64,000 nucleotides of DNA from Prochlorococcus marinus str. MIT 9515 (GTDB lineage Bacteria; Cyanobacteriota; Cyanobacteriia; PCC-6307; Cyanobiaceae). Shown one piece after another: positions 51,532 through 64,000 of this stretch. Where the stretch lies: positions 496,001 through 560,000 of the forward strand of contig NC_008817.1 of assembly GCF_000015665.1 (NCBI RefSeq), written 5' to 3'. The number at the start of each line of letters is the position of its first letter. Position 1 is the first letter of the stretch. Both the position numbers and the translations under genes were made by a program. The notes under the pieces were generated by a model. It was given only the letters and a program-made list of their open reading frames with translations. It did not search any database and was not told the origin of the DNA.

Positions 51532-52302
51532 ATGGAACCAACTTCTAGCCTAAATAGAGGAGAATCAAAAAAAGGAAGCTCTCTTGTAACGGGGTCTGAA
51601 GTTCAATCTCAGGCCAATGGAGCAAGTTGTTTTATTACAACTGACTCTGAAAAGTCATTAGTTTCTAGACAAGCAAGTCAAGTTGAGCAAATAGAACTAA
51701 GGACGTATGTCTTTTTAGACTCCCTTCAACCTCAGTTATCCGCATATATGGGAACTGTAAGTAGAGGCTTTTTACCAATACCTGGCGATTCTTGCTTATG
51801 GATGGAGGTGTCTCCAGGAATGGCCGTTCATAGAGTTACTGATATTGCTTTAAAAGCAAGCAATGTAAGACTAGGCCAAATGATTGTTGAAAGAGCCTTT
51901 GGTTCTTTAGCTCTTTATCACAAGGACCAAAGTACGGTTTTGCATTCAGGAGATGTAGTTTTAGATGCGATTGGTAGTGAAGTAAGGAAAAGAACAAAAC
52001 CATCTACAAGCTGGACAGAAGTTATCCGTGCAATTACTCCAGACCATGCAGTTTTAATAAATAGGCAAAACAGAAGTGGATCTATGATTCAATCTGGAAT
52101 GAGCATGTTTATTTTGGAGACTGAACCCGCAGGATATGTACTGAAGGCTGCTAATGAAGCTGAAAAATCTTCAAATATAACTATCGTTGATGTAAAGGCT
52201 GTCGGAGCTTTTGGAAGGTTAACTCTTGCAGGGAAAGAGGGAGATGTCGAGGAGGCTGCAGCAGCTGCAATAAGAGCTATCGAGCAAATATCAAATAATT
52301 AA
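51532..52302 (+). CDS. csoS1D: Carboxysome shell protein CsoS1D (tandem BMC pore protein)
   Basis: A 256-residue protein with a polar start of about 50 residues and two BMC-fold halves, ELRTYVFLDSLQPQLSAYMGT onward and then WTEVIRAITPDHAVLINRQNRSG to the end with VDVKAVGAFGRLTLAGKEGDVEEAA. CsoS1D forms trimers with a large gated pore and is thought to let larger metabolites such as RuBP pass the carboxysome shell. It precedes the main cso operon by about 0.9 kb, with the NTP pyrophosphatase gene between them on the other strand. Confidence 0.92.
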   Translation: MEPTSSLNRGESKKGSSLVTGSEVQSQANGASCFITTDSEKSLVSRQASQVEQIELRTYVFLDSLQPQLSAYMGTVSRGFLPIPGDSCLWMEVSPGMAVHRVTDIALKASNVRLGQMIVERAFGSLALYHKDQSTVLHSGDVVLDAIGSEVRKRTKPSTSWTEVIRAITPDHAVLINRQNRSGSMIQSGMSMFILETEPAGYVLKAANEAEKSSNITIVDVKAVGAFGRLTLAGKEGDVEEAAAAAIRAIEQISNN

Positions 52303-52311
52303 ATAGGTTTT

Positions 52312-52896
52312 TTAAATAATTCCAAATTCTTTTTTCAAAAAAGGAGATATATTTTTTGCTGCTTTGCCTCTACTTCCAAGTTTAATTAATTGAGAATGAC
52401 TTAATTCTCCGTATACACAATTAGCTTCCTTGATCCAGAAAATAGATTCAAATTCTCCGTTAGGATATTTTGGTTCTTTAAGGATTTCCCCCCAGCAAAT
52501 ACCAGTTGTATCTTTTACTAAATTCCCCTTTGGATCACATAAGACCATACAACTAATAAATTTTGCGCTTCTGTAAGGGATATCGCTTAGTTCTCTTAGT
52601 AACTTGCTAATCTTTTCATTTTTGCTTTTGGCATATCTTGCAGAATATATGCCAGGTCGTCCATCCAAATAATCAACCTCAAGCCCTGAGTCGTCGGCTA
52701 ATGCCCAAGTCTTAGTTTCTAAAGCAGCTGCTTTTGCCTTTAAAAAAGCATTTTCAAAATAGGTTTTACCTGTCTCCTCTACGTTTAGATATTCTGGTTG
52801 CTTTTTTACTTCTAAAGATAAAACGTCTAACATCTCAAATATTTCAGATACCTTCTTTGGATTACCGCTTGCAATTGTAAGAGCAGGAAAGTTCAA
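52312..52896 (-). CDS. rdgB: Non-canonical purine NTP pyrophosphatase (RdgB/HAM1)
   Basis: A 194-residue nucleotide-cleaning enzyme that removes inosine and xanthosine triphosphates. ASGNPKKVSEI at the N-terminus, ENAFLKAKAA, ALADDSGLEVDYLDGRPGIYSARY and the C-terminal LGSRGKAAKN basic site are present. Its presence between csoS1D and csoS1 is a conserved-looking insertion on the opposite strand. Its promoter must lie in the 52897-53223 spacer, shared with the cso operon. Confidence 0.93.
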   Translation of the reverse strand: MNFPALTIASGNPKKVSEIFEMLDVLSLEVKKQPEYLNVEETGKTYFENAFLKAKAAALETKTWALADDSGLEVDYLDGRPGIYSARYAKSKNEKISKLLRELSDIPYRSAKFISCMVLCDPKGNLVKDTTGICWGEILKEPKYPNGEFESIFWIKEANCVYGELSHSQLIKLGSRGKAAKNISPFLKKEFGII

Positions 52897-52959
52897 AATA
52901 ATATAATAAATATCTGAAATATCATCTTACTTTAAAACTTGATACAGAGACAGGAAGGG

Positions 52960-52973
52960 TTGAACATTCCACA
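52960..52973 (+). repeat. Copy A of the 14-bp word TTGAACATTCCACA
   Basis: An exact copy of the word also found at 53192 (same direction) and inverted at 4939. It begins an unusually GC-rich patch (about 52950-53000) in which CCTGT and ACAGG (52974-52987) can pair around GTAG and further CAGG/CCTG pairs occur, so a folded RNA from either strand is possible. Confidence 0.6.
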
Positions 52974-53096
52974 CCTGTGTAGACAGGGCCTGCCTCGTAC
53001 GGAAATAACTTAATGTAAATTTTTTATTAACACAACCGTATGTTTTGATGCTCTAACTAATTCCCATAAGTATTGACATATCAATAGTACCAAGGG

Positions 53097-53115
53097 TGAT
53101 AAGTTTAACTTATCA
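53097..53115. promoter_or_regulatory. Perfect 19-bp palindrome, candidate LysR-type operator
   Basis: TGATAAGTTTAACTTATCA has two 9-base arms around one central T and lies 108 bases before the csoS1 ATG. Inside it, TAAGTTTAACTTA (53100-53112) fits the T-N11-A dyad bound by LysR-type regulators such as CbbR, RbcR or CcmR, which control CO2 fixation genes in many bacteria. A TTGACA box sits 18 bases before it. Structure is seen; regulator identity is inferred. Confidence 0.55.
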
Positions 53116-53191
53116 ATGATAGAAAAAACATTAATAGGGTTTTTAATGGAAAACGCTTGACTTATAAGTACGTTATGGACCATTCTTCCAA

Positions 53192-53205
53192 TTGAACATT
53201 CCACA
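53192..53205 (+). repeat. Copy B of the 14-bp word TTGAACATTCCACA
   Basis: Exact second copy, 232 bases after copy A in the same orientation, ending 18 bases before the csoS1 ATG. At this place it would be in the mRNA leader or overlap the promoter. No Shine-Dalgarno sequence is visible between it and the ATG. Confidence 0.6.
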
Positions 53206-53223
53206 TTTAGTAATTAGTAGGCA

Positions 53224-53535
53224 ATGGCTACAGAAACAATGGGTATCGCACTCGGCATGATCGAGACACGCGGACTTGTACCTGCAATCGAAGCAGCAGA
53301 CGCAATGACCAAGGCAGCAGAAGTTCGTCTTATTGGTCGTGAATTCGTAGGTGGCGGTTATGTCACAGTTTTAGTTAGAGGAGAAACAGGCGCTGTTAAC
53401 GCAGCAGTTAGGGCTGGAGCTGATGCTTGTGAGAGAGTTGGTGACGGTCTTGTTGCGGCTCACATCATTGCTCGTCCTCATAGAGAGGTTGAGCCAGCTC
53501 TTGGTAATGGCGATTTCCTTGGTCAAAAGGACTAA
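53224..53535 (+). CDS. csoS1: Carboxysome major shell protein CsoS1
   Basis: A 103-residue BMC-domain protein that forms the hexagonal tiles of the alpha-carboxysome shell. ALGMIETRGLVPAIEAADAM, AEVRLIGREFVGGGYVTVLVRG and GAVNAAVRAGADA are the BMC core; FVGGGY lies at the pore. Base composition is richer in G and C than its neighbours, as in other highly expressed genes here. One csoS1 copy is seen. It is the first gene of the operon. Confidence 0.96.
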   Translation: MATETMGIALGMIETRGLVPAIEAADAMTKAAEVRLIGREFVGGGYVTVLVRGETGAVNAAVRAGADACERVGDGLVAAHIIARPHREVEPALGNGDFLGQKD

Positions 53536-53545
53536 ATTAAATAAA

Positions 53546-53562
53546 GCAAAATATAATTTTGC
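53546..53562 (+). other. Small hairpin between csoS1 and rbcL
   Basis: GCAAAAT (53546-53552) and ATTTTGC (53556-53562) pair around three bases, ten bases after the csoS1 stop. It has no T-tract, so it may mark an RNA end or processing point between shell and Rubisco parts of the message rather than a terminator. Confidence 0.4.
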
Positions 53563-53601
53563 ACAAAAATATTTTCCCTTTATAGACCTTAATTTATCCT
53601 T

Positions 53602-55017
53602 ATGAGTAAGAAGTATGACGCTGGGGTAAAGGAGTACAGAGATACATACTGGACTCCTGAATATGTCCCCCTTGACACTGACTTGTTAGCCTGTTTCAAA
53701 TGCACAGGTCAAGAAGGTGTTCCGAGAGAAGAAGTTGCTGCAGCGGTAGCGGCTGAATCTTCTACAGGTACTTGGTCAACTGTTTGGTCCGAGTTACTTA
53801 CAGACCTTGAATTTTACAAGGGTCGTTGTTATCGGATTGAAGATGTTCCCGGAGATCCAGAAGCATTCTATGCATTTATTGCATATCCTCTAGATCTTTT
53901 CGAAGAAGGTTCAATCACAAACGTATTAACATCATTAGTCGGAAACGTTTTTGGATTTAAAGCTCTAAGACATCTACGTCTTGAAGATATTAGATTCCCA
54001 ATCGCTTTTATTAAGACTTGTGGTGGACCACCTAATGGCATAGTTGTTGAAAGAGATCGACTTAATAAGTATGGAAGACCTCTTCTTGGCTGTACCATTA
54101 AACCTAAATTAGGTCTGTCTGGTAAAAACTATGGTCGAGTTGTATATGAGTGTCTTAGAGGCGGTCTTGATTTAACAAAGGATGATGAGAATATTAATTC
54201 TCAACCATTCCAGCGTTGGAGAGAAAGATTTGAGTTTGTTGCAGAAGCAGTTAAACTTGCTCAGCAAGAAACTGGAGAAGTTAAAGGTCACTACCTAAAC
54301 TGTACTGCAAACACTCCTGAAGAGCTCTATGAACGTGCTGAATTTGCAAAAGAGCTAGATATGCCAATCATCATGCATGATTATATAACTGGTGGTTTTA
54401 CTGCAAATACTGGCTTGGCAAACTGGTGTCGTAAAAATGGCATGCTTCTGCATATTCACAGAGCTATGCATGCTGTTATTGATAGACATCCGAAGCATGG
54501 TATTCATTTCAGAGTTCTAGCAAAATGTTTGAGACTCTCCGGTGGAGATCAATTACATACTGGAACTGTTGTTGGAAAACTAGAGGGTGATCGTCAAACA
54601 ACTCTTGGCTACATTGACAACTTAAGAGAGTCATTTGTTCCTGAAGATAGATCAAGAGGTAACTTCTTTGATCAAGATTGGGGTTCAATGCCAGGAGTTT
54701 TTGCTGTCGCATCAGGTGGTATTCACGTATGGCATATGCCTGCACTTTTAGCGATTTTTGGAGATGATTCTTGTCTTCAGTTCGGTGGAGGAACACATGG
54801 TCACCCATGGGGTTCAGCTGCTGGAGCTGCAGCCAACAGAGTTGCTTTAGAAGCTTGTGTAAAAGCACGTAATGCTGGTCGCGAAATCGAAAAAGAGAGT
54901 AGAGACATTCTTATGGAAGCTGCTAAGCACAGTCCTGAATTGGCTATTGCTCTTGAAACTTGGAAGGAAATTAAGTTTGAATTTGATACCGTCGACAAGC
55001 TTGACGTTCAAGGTTAA
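53602..55017 (+). CDS. rbcL: Rubisco large subunit, form IA
   Basis: A 471-residue catalytic subunit that carboxylates ribulose bisphosphate. The catalytic block [17 protein letters not shown] with the proton-shuttling Lys, the carbamylated Lys in [45 protein letters not shown] (loop 6 with Lys) and [10 protein letters not shown] are all intact. Close linkage with cso genes and the sequence type mark it as form IA, which works inside alpha-carboxysomes. Confidence 0.98.
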
Positions 55018-55031
55018 ACCACATTTCAAAA

Positions 55032-55056
55032 TTGAGGAGATTTTTCCTCTCCTCAA
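55032..55056 (+). other. 9-bp hairpin between rbcL and rbcS
   Basis: TTGAGGAGA (55032-55040) pairs exactly with TCTCCTCAA (55048-55056) over a 7-base loop. It begins 15 bases after the rbcL stop. No T-tract follows, so it probably protects the 3' end of rbcL RNA or marks processing. The stem contains a strong AGGAG-like sequence, but it lies too far from rbcS to serve as its ribosome site. Confidence 0.5.
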
Positions 55057-55068
55057 ACTTCTATAAAT

Positions 55069-55084
55069 CTCGTTCTTTTACGAG
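55069..55084 (+). other. 5-bp hairpin before rbcS
   Basis: CTCGT (55069-55073) and ACGAG (55080-55084) pair around TCTTTT. It is the second stem in the rbcL-rbcS spacer, 26 bases before the rbcS ATG. It is short, so it could be chance. Confidence 0.3.
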
Positions 55085-55110
55085 TAATTTCATTCACATT
55101 TAAATTTATT

Positions 55111-55452
55111 ATGCCTTTCCAGAGCACAGTAGGCGACTATCAAACAGTTGCAACCCTGGAAACATTCGGTTTCTTACCACCGATGACCCAGGAAGAAATA
55201 TACGATCAAATTGCATACATAATTGCTCAAGGCTGGAGTCCTGTTATTGAGCATGTTCATCCTAGTGGCAGTATGCAAACTTATTGGTCTTATTGGAAGC
55301 TCCCATTCTTTGGGGAAAAAGACCTTAACTTGGTTGTAAGTGAATTAGAGGCATGTCATAGAGCATACCCTGATCACCATGTAAGAATAATCGGATACGA
55401 TGCTTACACTCAAAGCCAAGGAACAGCTTTTGTAGTTTTCCAAGGACGTTAA
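55111..55452 (+). CDS. rbcS: Rubisco small subunit
   Basis: A 113-residue small subunit that completes the L8S8 holoenzyme. TLETFGFLPPMTQEEIYDQIAYIIAQGW, YWSYWKLPFFG, and HHVRIIGYDAYTQSQGTAFVVF match the cyanobacterial form IA type with no N-terminal extension. It lies 93 bases after rbcL; the spacer is rich in hairpins. Confidence 0.97.
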   Translation: MPFQSTVGDYQTVATLETFGFLPPMTQEEIYDQIAYIIAQGWSPVIEHVHPSGSMQTYWSYWKLPFFGEKDLNLVVSELEACHRAYPDHHVRIIGYDAYTQSQGTAFVVFQGR

Positions 55453-55474
55453 ACCTACTTTATGTAGTAAATAT

Positions 55475-55508
55475 CTTTCTCCAATATTTTTTGGAGAAAG
55501 TCTTTTTT
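55475..55508 (+). terminator. Strong terminator-like hairpin between rbcS and csoS2
   Basis: CTTTCTCCAA (55475-55484) and TTGGAGAAAG (55491-55500) form a perfect 10-bp stem over a 6-base loop, followed by TCTTTTTT. This is a textbook intrinsic terminator inside the carboxysome operon, 22 bases after the rbcS stop and 36 bases before csoS2. Partial termination here would lower csoS2 and later gene expression relative to Rubisco. Confidence 0.8.
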
Positions 55509-55544
55509 AAAAGAGTTTTTTAAAGAGTTTCAAATTTGAAGATT

Positions 55545-57842
55545 ATGTCAAAAAAAACCAGTAGAGAGATTGCACTTGAAAGAAGAAAGGCGATGAGCGA
55601 TAGCGGTAAAAAAGCTGCTGCCTACTCTTCAACTACTAAAGAAAGAGTTCGATCTTCTCAAGATATAAAGATTTCTGGGACTCAGTCTTCTCCTAATAAT
55701 CAAAATATTTCTAAGCCAGCAACAAAACATATTCCAAAAACTCAGGTAAGTAGAAAGTCTTCTTCAACAACTTTATCTAGTAAAGAGTTAGTAATAAATA
55801 GAAGAAAGGCAATGTCTACGCATGGGAAATCTGCTATAAATTCATCTGATAGAACTCGCACTGATGTTAAAAAAGAAATTCCTATAAATACAGTTAAATC
55901 AACCATAAACAAAAATCAAGAAGTTGAAAATTCCTATAATACAGAAATCAAAACTTCAAAACCAAACGTTAAAAGAAGAATAAAACAGAAGAGAAAGCCT
56001 ATAACTAATACAAGTAGAGATATTGTTTTAGCGAGAAGAGAAGCTCAATCTAAGCATGGTAAATCAGCATCTAAACAAAATACTAGTGCCGCTTCTTTAG
56101 CTAGAAGGGGAGACCCAGATTTAAGTAGTAGAGAAATTTCTCAGAGAGTAAGAGAGCTAAGAAGTAAAACTGGTGCCACAGGTAAAAAAGGTAATGGTAA
56201 ATGTAGACCATGTGGTCCAAATAAAAATGGAGCCAAACAAAATATTGCTGATGCTAGCTGGAAAGTTGGAACAAGTGAAACTGATTCAGGTCAAATAGTT
56301 ACTGGAACACAAGCTAATAGATCTGTAAAAACTACAGGTAATGAAGCTAGTACATGCAGAACAGTTACTGGGACACAATACATGGGAGCAGAAGTAGCTG
56401 ATCAATTTTGTCAAGATAGACCAATTTATAAACAACCACTTAGATCTACTGTTACCGCTACCACATCAGGTAATAAAGTAACTGGGAACGAAGTTGGTAG
56501 ATCCGAGAGGGTAACAGGAGATGAGCCAGGCACTTGTAAAAACCTTACAGGTACTGAATACATATCTGCTAATCAATCACAGAAGTATTGTGGTGATATT
56601 CCAAAAAATCCTTCAAAGGTTAAACATAGTACTACAACCGACGGTCTAAAAGTATCTGGATCTCTTCCTGGTAGATCAACGTTGGTTACTGGAGATGAAT
56701 CAGGTTCTGGACATCAGTTAACAGGAGATCAATATCTTGGCTCTGAGCCAAATCCACAAGGTAAAGCATTTGAAAAAGTAGGGAGTTATAACACTCTTAA
56801 TGGGAATTCTGTAACTGGTACAGGGGTAGGCAGATCAGATCATATGACAGGTAATGAACATGGAAGCTGTAAAAATATAACTGGTGATGAGTATATAGGA
56901 TCTCAACAATATGAGAAGTTTTGTGGTTCAAAACCAAAACCTGAAGCTAGAAAAGTAGGTTTAAGCCTTTCATCAAAGTCTAATTTGATAAGTGGGACTA
57001 TGACAGGAAGATCAAAAATCGTAACTGGAGATGAACCCGGTTCATGCAAAGTGTTAACTGGAACACCATACGCAGGCTTAGATCAGATTAATGAAAATTG
57101 TAGTACTGAGATTTCTGAAGATATGAAATCTAGAGCCACAATCAATTCTGGAAATAATTCAAATGCAAGACTTACAGGACAGCAACCAGGGATTGGTGGA
57201 GTAATGACAGGTGCTAAGAAAGGTGCTTGTAAGAATCTCACAGGGACACCTTATGTTGGTGGAGATCAGTTCTCAAAAACTTGTGATAATCCCTCGCATG
57301 ATACTGCCTATGCGAATCCGGAAAAGTCAGCAGGTAATTCTTGGAACGAATTCTCTGTTAAATCACCATCAAGGGACAAATATTCTGAAAAAAATACTCA
57401 AGGTGTTACCGGTAATGAATATGAAAATGGTTCAAAGATAACAGGCCCTTTTGATATGGCTGTAGACAAAGTCACTGGAACTGAAAAATTTAGATTCGAA
57501 CCAAATAAAAATATTACCTATAAACAAAAAATGGAAATTGAAGAGACAGATCGTGCTGCAAATACACCTGAAAAAAGAGTTACATCTAGGATTACTGGTG
57601 AAGGACAATCAGTGGGGAACGTAACTGGTGATGATTGGGATCGTGGTGATAAGGTTACAGGTACAGAGGGAGCTTCTTCAAGGAAGAGAAATCCATCAAG
57701 AGCAGGATTTACTAGCGCAATGCCTCCTTTAGAGGTTAAGAGGAACGAGGAAGTAGAAAAACCAGATTTCTTGATAACTGGATCTAGTGGTAATACTCGT
57801 GAAGGACAACTTGTTACCTTTTCAGGTGGTGCAAGAGGTTAA
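55545..57842 (+). CDS. csoS2: Carboxysome scaffold protein CsoS2
   Basis: A 765-residue, largely disordered protein that links Rubisco to the shell. The N-region has four basic helical repeats, such as SREIALERRKAMSDSGKKA and KELVINRRKAMSTHGKSA (starting near residues 7, 80, 157 and 195), which bind Rubisco. The M-region (about 240-582) has six repeats with VTGxE/GRS... KNLTGTxY patterns, most with paired Cys; the third (SGSLPGRSTLVTGDESGSGHQL) has none. The C-region ends TREGQLVTFSGGARG, the shell anchor. ATG 55545 is chosen over a TTG three codons earlier because MSKKTSREIAL is the usual start. Confidence 0.96.
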   Translation: MSKKTSREIALERRKAMSDSGKKAAAYSSTTKERVRSSQDIKISGTQSSPNNQNISKPATKHIPKTQVSRKSSSTTLSSKELVINRRKAMSTHGKSAINSSDRTRTDVKKEIPINTVKSTINKNQEVENSYNTEIKTSKPNVKRRIKQKRKPITNTSRDIVLARREAQSKHGKSASKQNTSAASLARRGDPDLSSREISQRVRELRSKTGATGKKGNGKCRPCGPNKNGAKQNIADASWKVGTSETDSGQIVTGTQANRSVKTTGNEASTCRTVTGTQYMGAEVADQFCQDRPIYKQPLRSTVTATTSGNKVTGNEVGRSERVTGDEPGTCKNLTGTEYISANQSQKYCGDIPKNPSKVKHSTTTDGLKVSGSLPGRSTLVTGDESGSGHQLTGDQYLGSEPNPQGKAFEKVGSYNTLNGNSVTGTGVGRSDHMTGNEHGSCKNITGDEYIGSQQYEKFCGSKPKPEARKVGLSLSSKSNLISGTMTGRSKIVTGDEPGSCKVLTGTPYAGLDQINENCSTEISEDMKSRATINSGNNSNARLTGQQPGIGGVMTGAKKGACKNLTGTPYVGGDQFSKTCDNPSHDTAYANPEKSAGNSWNEFSVKSPSRDKYSEKNTQGVTGNEYENGSKITGPFDMAVDKVTGTEKFRFEPNKNITYKQKMEIEETDRAANTPEKRVTSRITGEGQSVGNVTGDDWDRGDKVTGTEGASSRKRNPSRAGFTSAMPPLEVKRNEEVEKPDFLITGSSGNTREGQLVTFSGGARG

Positions 57843-57849
57843 GTAAATA

Positions 57850-59379
57850 ATGCCTTTAAGAGGACTGGCTAAAGCCAAGAACTTCACATTGGGGCCAACA
57901 GCTCCAATGAAAACTTTTACGGAAAATATCCATATACAAACTAAAGAATCAAATAATTTACTAAATCCCGTAAATCTACACAAATTAACTAATAATATTC
58001 AAAATGAAAATCTATTTAAGTATGAGAGCAAAATAAAAAGTGATTTTGACGAAATTGTTCCAACTCTTAAGGAAATTGCACGAATACAACATCATGAAGA
58101 TTTTATAAATAAGGCTCAGACAATATCTAGAAAAAATTTGGGAATAGATTTACCCCTTCATATATTAGATAAATCTTGGGTAAAACCTCTTGATATGAGA
58201 GCTTTATATGCATGGTGCGCTTTCAAACAGCATGAGAAACTTAGTGATAATTTTTTTAATAATGATCCACTTGAAGGTGCTGCTGGAAGTAGAGGTGCAG
58301 AAGACTTTGAAAAATTTCTTTTAGATTGTGGAATACATTTACTTGATATAACTCCTTGTTCAGATGGGCGATTAGCTCATTCAGTAGCATATGTAATGAG
58401 AATACCTTTTAGTTCAGTAAGAAGAAGATCTCATGCTGGAGCACTTTTTGATATTGAAAATACAGTAAATAGATGGGTTAAAACAGAACACAAAAGATAT
58501 AGAGAGAATATTCCTAATGAAGCACATAAAGATACCAGATACTTAAAAGTTGTAACTTATCATTTTAGTTCAGTAGATCCTTTGCATCAGGGATGCGCAG
58601 CTCATGGGAGTAATGACGAGTTAGCTGCAGGAGAAGGTAGAAATAAACTATATGCTTTCAAAGAGGCTGTAGAGAATAGCTTTTGCTGCGGTGCATCTGT
58701 GGATTTAATGTTGATTGGACTTGATACAGACACTGATTCATTAAAAATACATTTGTCAAATAGCGATGGCAGTATAGATCTAGAAAAAACTATTTCTACA
58801 TTAGATATTTATAATTCAACAATAAATTTTTCAGGGGATGATGCAGAAAGAGAGATTTGTCAAACAATTTCTAATCATTCTTCAAAAGATAAACTCCAGG
58901 GGCTGGAAAAATTTATGTATAAATTAATTGTTAATAATATTTCTCAGATTGATTACGTTAAAAAATTTCATAAAGGTTCATATGAAGATATTGGTCATGC
59001 TGAGAGGTTTATTGGTGTTGGAATTGGTTTCAAAGAGGTACATTTAAGAAATTTAACCTATTTTGCTCATCTTGATACTGTTGAAGAAGGAGCTCCAGAT
59101 TTGGATGTAGGGGTAAAGATTTTTACAGGATTAAATGTTTCTCAAGATCTGCCTATTCCAGTAGTAATAAGATTTGATTATTCCGGTAAAGTTCCCGGAG
59201 CAAAAGATAGAGCGGCAAAAGATTGTAATAGAGTCAATAATGCGATATCAATTAGATATAAAAGTTTAGTTGATAAGGGGTTGTTACACACCTGTCTTAC
59301 CATAAGAGATAGGGACAACATTCATTCCGCTCAAATTATTGGAATGTCTTTAGATAAAAAAACAGAGGAGGCTCACTAG
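57850..59379 (+). CDS. csoSCA: Carboxysomal carbonic anhydrase CsoSCA (CsoS3)
   Basis: A 509-residue shell-associated carbonic anhydrase that turns bicarbonate into CO2 near Rubisco. Zinc ligands known from Halothiobacillus (Cys, His, Cys) align with Cys170, His238 and Cys249, and the catalytic Asp and Arg with D172 and R174 in TPCSDGRLAH. The spacing H238 to C249 equals the known one. The N-terminal domain (about 1-110) and the degenerate C-terminal domain are present. It begins eight bases after csoS2. Confidence 0.95.
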   Translation: MPLRGLAKAKNFTLGPTAPMKTFTENIHIQTKESNNLLNPVNLHKLTNNIQNENLFKYESKIKSDFDEIVPTLKEIARIQHHEDFINKAQTISRKNLGIDLPLHILDKSWVKPLDMRALYAWCAFKQHEKLSDNFFNNDPLEGAAGSRGAEDFEKFLLDCGIHLLDITPCSDGRLAHSVAYVMRIPFSSVRRRSHAGALFDIENTVNRWVKTEHKRYRENIPNEAHKDTRYLKVVTYHFSSVDPLHQGCAAHGSNDELAAGEGRNKLYAFKEAVENSFCCGASVDLMLIGLDTDTDSLKIHLSNSDGSIDLEKTISTLDIYNSTINFSGDDAEREICQTISNHSSKDKLQGLEKFMYKLIVNNISQIDYVKKFHKGSYEDIGHAERFIGVGIGFKEVHLRNLTYFAHLDTVEEGAPDLDVGVKIFTGLNVSQDLPIPVVIRFDYSGKVPGAKDRAAKDCNRVNNAISIRYKSLVDKGLLHTCLTIRDRDNIHSAQIIGMSLDKKTEEAH

Positions 59380-59381
59380 TT

Positions 59382-59648
59382 ATGTTAATTTGCAAGGTTG
59401 TAAAACCACTTGTATCAACCAATAGAATTCCTGGTTTCGAACATAAACATTTACAAGTAGTTTTAGATGGATCCTCAAACAAAGTTGCAGTGGATGCCGT
59501 TGGTTGTAAACCAGGAGATTGGGTAATTTGTGTGGGTAGTTCTGCCGCGAGAGAGGCCGCCGGTAGCAAATCATATCCAAGTGATTTAACTATTGTTGGA
59601 ATTATTGATCATTGGGACCCTAATAGTCCAAAACAAATAGAGGTATAG
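59382..59648 (+). CDS. csoS4A: Carboxysome vertex protein CsoS4A
   Basis: An 88-residue BMV-type pentamer that closes the vertices of the carboxysome shell. It opens LICKVVKPLVSTNRIPGFEHKHL, with VDAVGCKPGDWVICVGSSAAR and LTIVGIIDHW at the end, the CcmL/CsoS4 family pattern. It starts two bases after the csoSCA stop. Confidence 0.95.
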   Translation: MLICKVVKPLVSTNRIPGFEHKHLQVVLDGSSNKVAVDAVGCKPGDWVICVGSSAAREAAGSKSYPSDLTIVGIIDHWDPNSPKQIEV

Positions 59649-59653
59649 AAATT

Positions 59654-59902
59654 TTGGAAATAATGAAAGTATGTGGAAGAATGGTATGCACTCAAAGAGT
59701 TCCAGGATTGGGACACATGAATTTAAGAATTTTAGAAAATAATAAAGGTAAAAAGGTTGTTGCGGTTGATCCTGTTGGAGCTAGAGAGGGGAATTGGGTT
59801 TTTACTTCTAGTGGTTCAGCAGCAAGGTTTGCTTGTCCTAATCCAGAAGTTCAAACTGATTTAACTATTGGTGGAATTATTGACTTCTGGGAACCTAATT
59901 AG
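59654..59902 (+). CDS. csoS4B: Carboxysome vertex protein CsoS4B
   Basis: An 82-residue paralogue of CsoS4A. The TTG start at 59654 yields MEIMKVCGRMVCTQRVPGLGH, as in related proteins; an ATG three codons later is the alternative. VAVDPVGAREGNWVFTSSGSAARFA and LTIGGIIDFW complete the fold. It is thought to be a minor pentamer of the vertices; loss of both proteins leaks carboxysomes in Halothiobacillus. Confidence 0.94.
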   Translation: MEIMKVCGRMVCTQRVPGLGHMNLRILENNKGKKVVAVDPVGAREGNWVFTSSGSAARFACPNPEVQTDLTIGGIIDFWEPN

Positions 59903-60002
59903 ACTTTTTATAGTTATTGCTTGATCAAATTTATTTGTAAAAAAATCAGGAAAAATATCGCATAAATGTATAGTATTAATTATTGTTATAAAATTCACCT
60001 AA

Positions 60003-60242
60003 ATGTGGAACCATAGGGATTCTCCTTCAAGAATTGAAAAAAGATTTGAATTTGAAGAGTATCAAAAAATTAGTATATTTTTAAAAAAAATAGATGAATT
60101 ATGTAAAGAAAAAAATATCTATCCAAATATTAGTTTTGGTAAGAATTTTGTAAGTGTATCAATATTTTTAGATTCTACGGAAATACTAAGTAATGAAAAA
60201 GAATTTTCTACAAGATTAGATAATTACTTTTTAGAAAAATAA
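60003..60242 (+). CDS. acRAF-like Rubisco assembly factor (PCD-like fold)
   Basis: A 79-residue protein resembling pterin-carbinolamine dehydratase (PCD) and the alpha-carboxysome Rubisco assembly factor acRAF. WNHRDSPSRIEKRFEFEEYQKISIFLKKIDELC, then IYPNISFGKNFVSVSIFLDS match that fold, while the catalytic His cluster of true PCD enzymes is missing (FGKNFVSVSI in place of a His-containing motif). Given its place directly after csoS4B, a Rubisco chaperone role is preferred over pterin recycling. Confidence 0.8.
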   Translation: MWNHRDSPSRIEKRFEFEEYQKISIFLKKIDELCKEKNIYPNISFGKNFVSVSIFLDSTEILSNEKEFSTRLDNYFLEK

Positions 60243-60247
60243 TCTTC

Positions 60248-60475
60248 TTAATAATTATTAGGTTTATTTATATCTCTTTTGATAAGAGCCATTAAATAGG
60301 TAGGAGCTTTATATCTGCCAGGTAGGCATCTATTTAATGTTTCAAGATGCCCCCAACATACAGTCCTCTCAATCTCTTTTATTGAGTTCCCTTTTAAAAT
60401 TAATAACCTTAGAGCTTTACAAAATAAAGGATAACCTGCTTCTAGTTCGTCTATATTTAGCTTTGCTGCTGTCAT
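60248..60475 (-). CDS. Small conserved unknown protein beside the cso operon
   Basis: A 75-residue protein on the opposite strand, five bases after acRAF. It is helical (LDELEAGYPLFCKALRLLILKG-type start, KEIERTVCWGHLETLNRCLP, then YKAPTYLMALIKRDI). Conserved-looking features are a Trp-Gly-His motif and two Cys. I recognise no family. It may concern carbon fixation by position only. Confidence 0.65.
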   Translation of the reverse strand: MTAAKLNIDELEAGYPLFCKALRLLILKGNSIKEIERTVCWGHLETLNRCLPGRYKAPTYLMALIKRDINKPNNY

Positions 60476-60559
60476 AGATCATAGAAGAATTGTTATTAAT
60501 AATCTATACAAATATGGTGCAGAATTGGCTCTTATTTCAAATTTCTAAATAATTATAAA

Positions 60560-60952
60560 TTAATCTAAGTATGCGACACAATCTATTTCAATTAAAACGC
60601 CTTTAGGTAAAGAAGAAACTTCAACACAAGCTCTTGCTGGGGGGTTCTTTACCTTAAAGAAGTCACTATATATTTCATTGACAGTTTTAAAATTTTTTAA
60701 ATCAGTTAGATATATAGTTGTTTTAATAACATCTTCCGCTGTGGCTCCTCCGGAATTAAGAACAGCTAGAAGATTTTTTAAAACTTGAGTAGTCTCCTTT
60801 TCGATATTCCCAAGGCAATTTATTTCATTTGAAACTGGATCAATAGCAATTTGACCAGAACAATAAATAAAATTTCCTGCTTTTATAGCTTGGTTATAAG
60901 GACCAACTGGGTCTGGGGCATTAGAAGTCTTAATTACTTTTGATGAGGACAT
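60560..60952 (-). CDS. ridA: RidA/YjgF family reactive imine deaminase
   Basis: A 130-residue trimeric protein that hydrolyses reactive enamines and imines made by PLP enzymes. SNAPDPVGPYNQAIKAGNFIYCSGQIAIDP, TTQVLKNLLAVLNSGGATAEDVIKTTIYLTDL and PPARACVEVSSLPKGVLIEIDCVA with the conserved Arg are the family blocks. gloB lies 24 bases away, upstream on the same strand. Confidence 0.94.
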   Translation of the reverse strand: MSSSKVIKTSNAPDPVGPYNQAIKAGNFIYCSGQIAIDPVSNEINCLGNIEKETTQVLKNLLAVLNSGGATAEDVIKTTIYLTDLKNFKTVNEIYSDFFKVKNPPARACVEVSSLPKGVLIEIDCVAYLD

Positions 60953-60976
60953 TTGATGAAAGATGTTTCTATAAAT

Positions 60977-61717
60977 TTAAACCCATGTATCTTTATTTGC
61001 TCTTAAGTAAGAAAATCTTTTTAAATTATCTGCTCTTAAAAACAGATTAATTATCAACTCTTCTTCGAGTAGAAATGGAATTGTAAGTTCTTTTAACGCA
61101 ATTTTCTTTTCAACTTCAATTAGTTTATTTTTTATATTTTCGTTTTCAGGTTCAAGATCTAAGGCCCATAAAAGATTTGACTTTGTATACTCATGAGCAC
61201 AGTAAATAGTGGTGTTTTTAGGTAATGACTTTATTTTTTTAAGTGAGTTATACATTTGTTTGTAAGTTCCTTCAAATATTCTTCCACATCCAGCTGAAAA
61301 TAACGTATCACCAATAAAAAGAATTGGAACTTTATTATGAATGTAGAAAGCCAGGTGTGATCTTGTATGCCCTATTACTTCTATCACGTGAACTTCCTCG
61401 TCTAATAATTTTAACTTGTCTCCATCTTTGACAGATAAATTTTGAAATGGTATTCGATCTTTTTCTTTTGCTGAAGCTATAACTTTAACCTTAGGCCATT
61501 CTTTTATAAGTTCTCTTGTCCCTCCAATATGATCGTGGTGATGATGTGTTTGTAAAATAGCTTTTAAATAAAGATTATGGGTTTTTAGGTATTCTATTAC
61601 AGGTTGAGAAAGGGCAGGATCAATTACTACTGCTGAATTATTCTTTCTCCATAACCATATGACATTATCACTGAGAACTCTAATTCCAATTATTGTTTGC
61701 TCTTTATTAAATTCCAT
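60977..61717 (-). CDS. gloB: Hydroxyacylglutathione hydrolase (glyoxalase II)
   Basis: A 246-residue metallo-beta-lactamase-fold enzyme. [18 protein letters not shown] supplies the zinc ligands, followed by [34 protein letters not shown] and [16 protein letters not shown]. It finishes methylglyoxal detoxification by cleaving S-lactoylglutathione. It probably shares a transcript with ridA. Confidence 0.93.
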
Positions 61718-61756
61718 TATTACCTTAGAATTAAAAGATTGCGTAAAAATTGATCT

Positions 61757-62395
61757 ATGATTACTATAGCTTTACCCAAAGGAGCTCTGTTAGAGGATTC
61801 AATTTCAATTTTTAAAAAAGCAGGATTGAACTTCTCTGATGCATTATTAGAGAATAATAGATCATTAACTATTGAATCAGAATGTAAACGAGCAAAGGCC
61901 TTATTGGTAAGAAATGGAGACGTTCCCGTTTATGTAAGTTACGGACAAGCTGATTTAGGAATCGTAGGATATGACGTATTACAGGAGTCAGAATTAAAAG
62001 TAGCTAAGTTACTTGATTTAGAGTTTGGTGGATGTCATATGTCTCTTGCAGTAAAAAATACTAGTAATTATTCAAAACCGACCGATCTTCCCGCTAATTG
62101 TAAAGTGGCAAGTAAATTTACAAAAACGGCAAGGGCCTATTTTGATGACTTAAATATACCCGTTGAGATTGTCCATTTAACTGGGTCAGTCGAGCTTGGT
62201 CCTATTACGGGGATGGCTGAAGCTATTGTTGATTTGGTCGCAACAGGCAAGACTCTTAAAGAAAACGGTTTAAGTAAAATTGATGATCTTTTTTATTCAA
62301 CTGCAAGGTTAATTGCCAATCCTCTCTCTATTAGATTAGATAGCAATCCTCTCCGAGATGTGATTTTATCAATAGAATCTTTTAAAGGTACATAG
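61757..62395 (+). CDS. hisG: ATP phosphoribosyltransferase, short form
   Basis: A 212-residue catalytic subunit for the first step of histidine synthesis. [34 protein letters not shown], and the PRPP-binding [28 protein letters not shown] are diagnostic. It lacks the C-terminal regulatory domain of long forms, so it should work with a separate HisZ protein encoded elsewhere. An ABC exporter gene begins 13 bases after its stop. Confidence 0.95.
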
Positions 62396-62408
62396 CATAT
62401 TTAAATAA

Positions 62409-64000
62409 ATGTTTTTGAATGATTTTAATAGAATCAAAAAATTAGGTAGATATTTAACTAAAGATAAGAAAACAATTTATCTTATTTTAATAGTCTTATT
62501 ACCTGTTTCTTTTGCAGGAGCAATTCAACCATTATTGGTTGGTCAAGCGATAACAATATTAAAAAATGAGAGTACAGATGTTTGGTTAGGCAAAACCTTC
62601 TTTGGTCAATCTATAAATTTAATTATTATTACCTTGTTCATAACGGTTCTATTTAGATTGGTTTTGCAGGGCTATCAATCCTATAATATTCAATCCGTTG
62701 GACAGAGATTGACAGCGAGGATTAGAAGAGAGCTTTTCGAACATTCTATTTCTCTTTCTCTGAAGTATCACGATAAAATGCCTGTTGGTAAATTGCTAAC
62801 AAGACTTACCAATGATGTAGATGCTTTGGCAGAAGTTTTTGGCAGCGGGGCGGTTGGAGTTATTGCTGATTTTGTAAGTCTTATAGTTATTTCATTAACA
62901 ATGCTTTCGATAGATAAAGGGCTCGCAATGTTGCTTCTTTTAACTCAAATTCCGGTTTCCTATTTTATTATTTGGCTTCAAAAACGCTACAGAAAAGCAA
63001 ATTATCAAGTGAGAGAGGAGTTATCTCAACTTAACTCTGACTTTCAAGAGAACCTTCAAGGATTAGAAGTCGTTCAAATGTTTAGGAGAGGATTTTTTAA
63101 TAGCAGGAAATTTTCTAATACAGGTATTGCATATCAAAAAGCAGTAAACGGGACCATTTTTTATGATAGTAGTATATCTGCTTTTATAGAATGGATATCT
63201 CTTGCTGCAGTATCTTTGGTTTTAGCTGTAGGAGGGTATCTAGTAACTTCGGGTAATATTGGATTAGGAACATTAACAACTTTTATTCTTTACTCCCAAA
63301 GACTCTTCGAACCCTTAAGACAATTAGCAGAAAGATTTACTCAGATACAAGGAGGACTTACTGCTGTAGAGAGAATAAATGAATTATTAGATGAAGAAAT
63401 TGAGATTAAAGACACATTTTCTTCTAAACAAATCTCAAAGGGTATTTTAAATAAGAATTATAAATTTAAAGGGAAGATTGAATTTCGTAATGTAAATTTC
63501 TTCTACAAAGAAGGTGAACATGTAATAAAAGATTTATCTTTTTTAGTTAATCCTGGAGAACATGTTGCTTTTGTTGGTCCAACTGGTTCTGGAAAATCAA
63601 CCATCATAAGATTACTTTGCAGACTCTATGAGCCTCAAGATGGCGAGATTTTAATTGATGATGTAAACATTAAAGATATACCAATAGCAAGACTTAGAAA
63701 TATGCTTGGGGTTGTGCTCCAAGATACTTTTATTTTTAGTGGTGATGTTGCCGATAACATAAAATTAAATAACGAAATAAATAATCAAGACTTAGAAAAT
63801 ATTTGTAAAGAGTTGGGTTTAGATACTTTATTAAAAAAGTTGCCTAATGGATTGAATACTTATCTTAGGGAGAGAGGGGGTAATCTTTCATCTGGAGAAA
63901 GACAACTTCTTTCAGTAGCAAGAGTAGCTATAAGAAATCCAATCATTTTGATAATGGATGAAGCTACGGCCTTTATGGATCCTTCCACAGAAGCAACTTT
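62409..64000 (+). CDS. ABC exporter, membrane plus ATPase domain, 3' end cut
   Basis: An open frame from ATG 62409 to the window edge gives about 530 residues. The first half has six hydrophobic segments (starting YLILIVLLPVSFAGAIQPLLVG). The second half is the ATPase: Walker A GPTGSGKST, Q-loop VVLQDTFIFSGDVADN, signature LSSGERQLLSVARVAI and Walker B ILIMDEATAFMDPSTEAT. This is the fused exporter type (MsbA/MdlB/multidrug class); the substrate may be lipid or drug. The last 60 or so residues are missing. Confidence 0.9.
   Translation, partial: MFLNDFNRIKKLGRYLTKDKKTIYLILIVLLPVSFAGAIQPLLVGQAITILKNESTDVWLGKTFFGQSINLIIITLFITVLFRLVLQGYQSYNIQSVGQRLTARIRRELFEHSISLSLKYHDKMPVGKLLTRLTNDVDALAEVFGSGAVGVIADFVSLIVISLTMLSIDKGLAMLLLLTQIPVSYFIIWLQKRYRKANYQVREELSQLNSDFQENLQGLEVVQMFRRGFFNSRKFSNTGIAYQKAVNGTIFYDSSISAFIEWISLAAVSLVLAVGGYLVTSGNIGLGTLTTFILYSQRLFEPLRQLAERFTQIQGGLTAVERINELLDEEIEIKDTFSSKQISKGILNKNYKFKGKIEFRNVNFFYKEGEHVIKDLSFLVNPGEHVAFVGPTGSGKSTIIRLLCRLYEPQDGEILIDDVNIKDIPIARLRNMLGVVLQDTFIFSGDVADNIKLNNEINNQDLENICKELGLDTLLKKLPNGLNTYLRERGGNLSSGERQLLSVARVAIRNPIILIMDEATAFMDPSTEAT

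Follow-up and report, generated by a model that had tools for sequence, protein, structure and literature searches.

The cso operon and its intercistronic hairpins

The genome of Prochlorococcus marinus str. MIT 9515, a high-light (HL) strain, is a single contig of 1,704,176 bp, and the window discussed here, meaning the whole 64,000-nucleotide stretch of DNA that was analyzed, covers its positions 496001-560000. The cso operon lies within it, with the gene order csoS1, rbcL, rbcS, csoS2, csoS3 (csoSCA), csoS4A, and csoS4B and a Pfam match for each gene. The features, in window coordinates, are as follows.

53224..53535, + strand: csoS1, major shell protein, opens the cso operon (PF00936 BMC, E 1.5e-26)
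53602..55017, + strand: rbcL (cbbL), Rubisco large subunit (PF00016, E 1.7e-139)
55032..55056, + strand: predicted rbcL-rbcS hairpin, the first intercistronic one, 9 bp (TTGAGGAGA/TCTCCTCAA), loop of 7, T-tract not directly adjoining (fold; kept in relatives)
55069-55084, + strand: predicted weak 5-bp hairpin between rbcL and rbcS (fold)
55111..55452, + strand: rbcS (cbbS), Rubisco small subunit, flanked by both intercistronic hairpins (PF00101, E 1.1e-36)
55475..55500, + strand: predicted rbcS-csoS2 hairpin, the second intercistronic one, 10 bp, loop TATTTT, -12.9 kcal/mol (fold and conserved position; compensatory base changes in low-light (LL) Prochlorococcus and in marine Synechococcus)
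55501..55508, + strand: U-rich tail TCTTTTTT adjoining the rbcS-csoS2 stem, typical of HL (sequence and clade comparison)
55503..55527, + strand: predicted AU-only helix that would absorb the U-tract and the following AAAGAG (single-sequence fold only)
55545..57842, + strand: csoS2, scaffold protein, its ATG 44 nt 3′ of the hairpin (PF12288, E 2.1e-192)
57850..59379, + strand: csoS3 (csoSCA), carboxysomal carbonic anhydrase, 7 nt past csoS2 (PF20686, E 3.6e-105)
59382..59648, + strand: csoS4A, vertex protein (PF03319, E 1.8e-22)
59654..59902, + strand: csoS4B, vertex protein (PF03319, E 1e-23)

A preliminary description of this DNA had reported a perfect 10-bp stem with a T-tract between rbcS and csoS2, and the sequence bears this out at 55475-55508. 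The stem CTTTCTCCAA/TTGGAGAAAG closes the loop TATTTT and is followed by the U-rich tail, in which 7 of 8 bases are T, and the hairpin stands 22 nt past the rbcS stop. The spacer at 55453-55542 folds with z = -3.56 and was equaled in stability by 1 of 200 shuffles. No other hairpin in the window combines a stem of 8 bp or more and -12 kcal/mol or lower with 5 or more T among the 8 bases that follow; in a 464-kb sample made up of the window and 20 stretches of this genome, read on both strands, 56 hairpins are that strong and 14 of them carry such a tract. The pattern CTTTCTCC-N4..26-GGAGAAAG occurs at a single place in the whole genome, and among co-directional spacers of 50-200 nt in the 20 stretches of 20 kb, for which genes were called crudely as ORFs of at least 100 aa, 1 of 51 is as strong as the one between rbcS and csoS2. 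Rfam 15 covariance models gave zero matches up to E = 1 in 52900-60300 and zero at gathering score in the window. The hairpins that had also been described between rbcL and rbcS are the 9-bp one, which no T-tract directly follows, and the weak one of 5 bp. The left arm of this 9-bp hairpin (TGAGGAG, within 55032-55056) sits in the stem; presumably this arm and a portion of the Yfr1/Yfr10 motif are complementary.

Conservation and compensatory change among relatives

A search for rbcS found it in 154 of 200 genomes from the same genus, in 267 of 271 from the family, and in all 32 genomes chosen from other genera. Eighty named loci were drawn from genome contigs, and the working set comprises 201 loci with rbcS and the start of csoS2, all within one family. 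Because these loci contain duplicates (the genome's own locus twice, and some genomes in two collections), counts are given for the 144 distinct spacers; L110 was excluded, its contig ending there. The groups HL and LL (both Prochlorococcus), marine Synechococcus, and others are our own labels, assigned partly by similarity and without a tree. A hairpin of at most -8 kcal/mol was found in the first 95 nt of the rbcS-csoS2 spacer in 143 of the 144 (HL 75/75, LL 21/21, uncertain label 2/2, a further genus 1/1, marine Synechococcus 15/15, and other genera 29/30), with the best hairpin off the usual place in several spacers of other genera and in L140. The stems read CTTTCTCC/GGAGAAAG in HL, ATAGCCTCGA/TCGAGGCTAT with variants in LL, GAGCCCTGA/TCAGGGCTC in marine Synechococcus, and often GGTCCCGG/CCGGGACC in the others. 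Across the 75 distinct HL spacers the core stem is nearly fixed and the loops span roughly 10-24 nt; stems of the MED4 type are 8 bp long, enclose a loop of about 22 nt, and reach -8.9 kcal/mol.

To weigh these folds against chance, the first 75 nt of the spacer were compared with dinucleotide shuffles for at most 25 spacers per group. The median z was -5.23 in HL (n = 25), -4.80 in LL (n = 23), -3.66 in marine Synechococcus (n = 15), and -4.25 in the others (n = 25), and the real fold was equaled by 0.1%, 0.1%, 2.8%, and 6.7% of the shuffles, respectively. The rbcS-csoS2 hairpin is beyond chance in the first three groups and less clear in the GC-rich remainder. Control pieces from within csoS2 and rbcS gave z between -0.96 and +1.68. 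The csoS1-rbcL spacer gave -1.15 in LL, -1.42 in Synechococcus, and -3.15 in HL (5.7% of shuffles), so some excess structure exists in that spacer in HL too. For the rbcL-rbcS hairpin, at most -8 kcal/mol was reached in the first 60 nt in 78/81 HL, 22/22 LL, 15/15 marine Synechococcus, and 20/31 other spacers; of the failures, the HL locus L081 has a misplaced rbcL stop, and L111 and L167/L168 carry real mismatches. Its median z was -5.39, -4.07, -3.75, and -1.89 in the same order of groups, with 0.5%, 0.7%, 1.3%, and 26.9% of shuffles as stable. Set against 143/144, these failures indicate that, of the two hairpins, the one between rbcS and csoS2 is kept more strictly. The idea, which came from HL, that both might pair with each other through a shared GGAGA/TCTCC was rejected on finding that core missing from the stems of the other groups.

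The preliminary description had named conservation of the stem by compensatory change in other strains as a check, and such change was found in LL and Synechococcus, the stems of which align with each other. The covariation set holds 34 rows and 9 pairs; rows had to carry an AGC-Y-Y core and 7 or more inward pairs, and 40 loci were tried, from which 2 that failed (L114 and L134) and 4 duplicates were removed. Pairing holds in 98.0% of stem cells, partly by construction because the rows were chosen by the stem, and falls to 26.8-49.3% when the partners are slid by 1-3 columns. Two-sided change occurs at 4 of the 9 pairs. Cells with two-sided change number 35 against a shuffled mean of 12.8, and the covariation score is 0.343 against 0.175; neither value was reached by any of 500 shuffles. 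Two other measures were not outstanding: 75 of 500 shuffles reach 4 pairs with two-sided change, and 445 of 500 reach the observed number of further pair types. Common ancestry could be partly the source of the two-sided change at these four pairs. The stem cells of the 34 rows include 12 G.U and 0 A.C, which points to the + strand RNA as the folding molecule. With its position kept, its fold better than shuffles, and its compensatory changes, the comparison supports the view that the rbcS-csoS2 structure is under selection. The same view is supported for the rbcL-rbcS hairpin.

The U-tract, termination, and transcript ends

The 8 nt after the stem hold a mean of 5.67 T in HL, 4.17 in LL, 3.73 in Synechococcus, and 3.00 in the others, where the rest of the spacer would predict 3.26, 3.18, 1.92, and 1.94. 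U is enriched past the stem in all four groups and strongly only in HL, in which 67 of 75 spacers have at least 5 T in those 8 nt and positions +1 to +5 are T in 0.9-1.0 of spacers; in LL and the others the T are diffuse. The 15 marine Synechococcus spacers (L135-L149) show an unusual fixed offset, with the U-tract 3-5 nt from the stem at +4 to +9, U being absent at +1 and +2 and present in 0.8-0.9 of spacers at +6 to +9. In one Synechococcus genome the strongest co-directional hairpins carry U right against the stem, and the hairpins at its convergent gene ends show no sharp U peak and are therefore an imperfect yardstick.

The terminator score that we used is presumably of the d'Aubenton-Carafa form, with a usual threshold of 0 tuned on E. 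coli. By this E. coli-tuned formula the hairpin in the window scores -11.2, below 0; in the genome-wide sample that gave this score, the hairpin scored for Synechococcus genome G374 was another one at +55 rather than the conserved one. Scores above 0 were obtained for 28 of 144 spacers (HL 23/75, LL 1/23, marine Synechococcus 0/15, others 4/31), and 61/75 HL spacers score above -15. A stable stem followed directly by a U-tract, as expected of an intrinsic terminator, is present in the window and mostly missing from the other groups. To call this a strong intrinsic terminator was thus an overstatement, given the score of -11.2 and the mere 5 of 69 non-HL spacers that pass; judging from the sequences, the terminator is at best an HL elaboration of a conserved intercistronic hairpin. 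For a second promoter before csoS2, consistent support from the sequence was not found. A TAnnnT hexamer between the hairpin and csoS2 occurs unevenly (HL 17/75, LL 14/23, Synechococcus 0/15, others 3/31), and a promoter consensus scan of 52000-64000 gave zero + strand candidates between 52903 and 58137. The MED4 RNA-seq operon map is said, in an excerpt of that report, to contain the cso cluster (PMC3898218), which suggests read-through.

Strong hairpins appear to be rare at transcript ends in this genome. Among 90 convergent gene ends in 400 kb (stretches L202-L221), none has a hairpin of at most -10 kcal/mol, and for MED4 the excerpted text of the same report gives just 11 significant termination signals in 337 3′ UTRs (PMC3898218). 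A search with PF07497, which matches 9 of 14 control genomes, found no Rho in the genome, and PF10150 found one RNase E/G. Elsewhere in the genome, an identical 28-nt hairpin, AAAAGACCTGCC..GGCAGGTCTTTT, occurs twice on the - strand of stretch L214 (6692-6719 and 8363-8390), 1.7 kb apart. These paired hairpins adjoin a possible OprB-type porin gene, are among the few strong hairpins of the genome sample, and have zero Rfam matches.

A proposed role and its relation to known systems

On this comparative evidence, the conserved unit is a predicted intercistronic RNA hairpin that is kept although its letters and its U-tract differ among groups. Being kept even where the letters change, it probably helps to set Rubisco output relative to scaffold and shell output, and a structure that stays while the U-tract comes and goes favors a role independent of termination. 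The explanation that we prefer, with moderate confidence, is that the hairpin guards the 3′ end of the rbcL-rbcS segment of the mRNA and that in HL it may also terminate transcription in part; what we infer in this is the protection, the cleavage, and the influence on protein ratio. Polymerase would transcribe through from csoS1 into csoS2, and the csoS2-csoS3-csoS4 RNA would then be cut, with RNase E as the likely enzyme, or degraded from its 3′ end. Exonucleases would halt at the rbcS-csoS2 hairpin, about 20 nt past the rbcS stop and just beyond a terminating ribosome. The rbcL-rbcS mRNA could thereby outlive the csoS2 mRNA and help far more Rubisco subunits than scaffold to be made. The rbcL-rbcS hairpin may act in the same way for rbcL, and in HL Prochlorococcus the U-tract adjoining the stem may reinforce this outcome through partial termination. 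The preliminary description had the ratio of Rubisco to shell and scaffold proteins set by partial termination or RNA processing; conservation of both hairpins fits that proposal, while strong termination as the general role is not supported. Two observations count against protection: the HL stem letters hardly vary, implying more constraint than structure alone requires, and the U enrichment in all four groups also fits weak termination.

That enrichment bears directly on the main competing explanation, in which the hairpin is a partial intrinsic terminator, or attenuator, between rbcS and csoS2, with some polymerases stopping at the U-tract and others continuing. We regard this as possible but doubtful. 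The HL stems with their U-tracts (at least 5 T of 8 in 67/75) and scores (above 0 in 23/75, above -15 in 61/75) speak for it, and with no Rho found, hairpins would be one means of stopping polymerase in this genome. It has to contend, however, with passing scores in so few non-HL spacers, with a marine Synechococcus U-tract set off from the stem, unlike that of the best co-directional hairpins in one Synechococcus genome, and with the short, wide-looped, and less stable MED4-type stem. The near-invariance of the HL stem letters would instead find its explanation if these letters were a putative recognition sequence for a protein or small RNA on the rbcS-csoS2 mRNA. An almost fixed core beside a loop that varies in length and letters is what such a site might look like, and a Yfr10 pull-down in MED4 enriched csoS1 and csoS2 and not other operon genes such as rbcLS, according to an excerpt of the report (PMC6778093). 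The stem letters are nevertheless wholly different among HL, LL/Synechococcus, and other genera, and we consider a binding site quite unlikely.

Least probable, and already disfavored, is the reading that the hairpin is a plain 3′ structure that arose by chance or mutation bias and has no part in csoS2 expression. Some structure does turn up by chance in two-thirds of the sampled control regions, and in the GC-rich other genera 6.7% of shuffles do as well and several of the best hairpins lie off the conserved place. Against this very improbable reading stand the conserved position and the compensatory change, the coding controls without any excess, the csoS1-rbcL spacer with none in LL/Synechococcus and moderate excess structure in HL (z -3.15, 5.7%), and the lack of any hairpin of at most -10 kcal/mol at the 90 convergent gene ends sampled over 400 kb.

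Protection of the rbcL-rbcS segment, our preferred explanation, could be carried one step further. Rather speculatively, the two hairpins that bracket rbcS may form an RNA-encoded ruler of α-carboxysome composition, the stem stability of which is retuned in each clade and which in HL has turned from stabilizer to attenuator through the U-tract. That HL attenuator would sit in a genome in which Rho was not found and which is almost devoid of other strong 3′ hairpins. If such a ruler were real, the proportion of Rubisco to scaffold and shell would be encoded in the stability of the stems between cistrons. How one operon yields unequal numbers of carboxysome proteins matters for α-carboxysomes and for their transfer to other hosts, and a hairpin preserved through compensatory change in the Rubisco operon of highly abundant marine phototrophs offers an exact, testable site. 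Operons rebuilt without their native spacers may, this suggests, lose a ratio control.

The carboxysome of Halothiobacillus neapolitanus provides figures for comparison. Excerpts of two reports give Rubisco:CsoSCA:CsoS2A:CsoS2B as 13:1:2:2.5, with the genes called differentially expressed (PMC12918739), and describe transcript levels that differ among the cso genes and follow protein abundance (PMC2760150). These protein numbers, which come from another organism, fit the direction of the proposed effect. In 2008, Cai et al. reportedly pointed to secondary structure elements in the H. neapolitanus cso operon as a possible cause of unequal expression. That operon is proteobacterial, whereas the conservation analyzed here is cyanobacterial, and we know of no cyanobacterial conservation analysis of cso operon structures. 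In the open-licence literature that was searched, no description of the rbcS-csoS2 hairpin or of its lineage-wide conservation was found. Among the rows consulted of an early RNA screen that compared four marine genomes, the region upstream of rbcLS is listed and rbcS-csoS2 is not (PMC1242208). The general idea that structures in the cso operon could set unequal expression is already known. A proteobacterial origin of the hairpin was examined on two plasmid-borne cso operons. In that of Nitrobacter hamburgensis, cbbS is followed after 6 nt by a 10-bp hairpin, in a spacer no better than shuffles (z -0.16). On plasmid pTs417 of Candidatus Thiodictyon syntrophicum, a very long near-perfect inverted repeat (L282, 7860-7960) lies between cbbS and csoS2; its z is -6.06 for a piece chosen around the repeat, and it may be a repeat element.

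Among known classes of RNA structure, rho-independent terminators resemble the HL hairpin in the GC-containing stem with an adjoining T-tract, but the cso hairpin differs from them in its place inside an operon, its low score (-11.2), and a T-tract that varies where the stem is kept. For the cip-cel operon of Clostridium cellulolyticum, a study states that 28 of the 33 stem-loops at intergenic processing sites have no U run and that stem-loop stability tracks upstream transcript abundance, reporters included (PMC4423207). By analogy, this SRPS type of stem-loop is the nearest measured precedent for the cso hairpin. Both are intergenic stem-loops, mostly free of U runs, in an operon for a multiprotein machine; those of cip-cel stand 3′ of the most abundant cistrons, as the cso hairpin presumably does. 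The cip-cel evidence comprises measured processed ends, Northern blots, and reporter assays, and that for the cso hairpin is sequence conservation. On that basis its place 3′ of a cistron inside an operon and its structure match, and the structure is conserved with no need of a U-tract (hairpin in 143/144, score above 0 in 28/144, and compensatory changes). The Rhodobacter puf operon likewise has intercistronic hairpins between highly and less expressed subunits of the photosynthetic complexes. Its genes and lineage differ from those of the cso operon, but hairpins would be placed between unequally expressed subunits of one operon in both.
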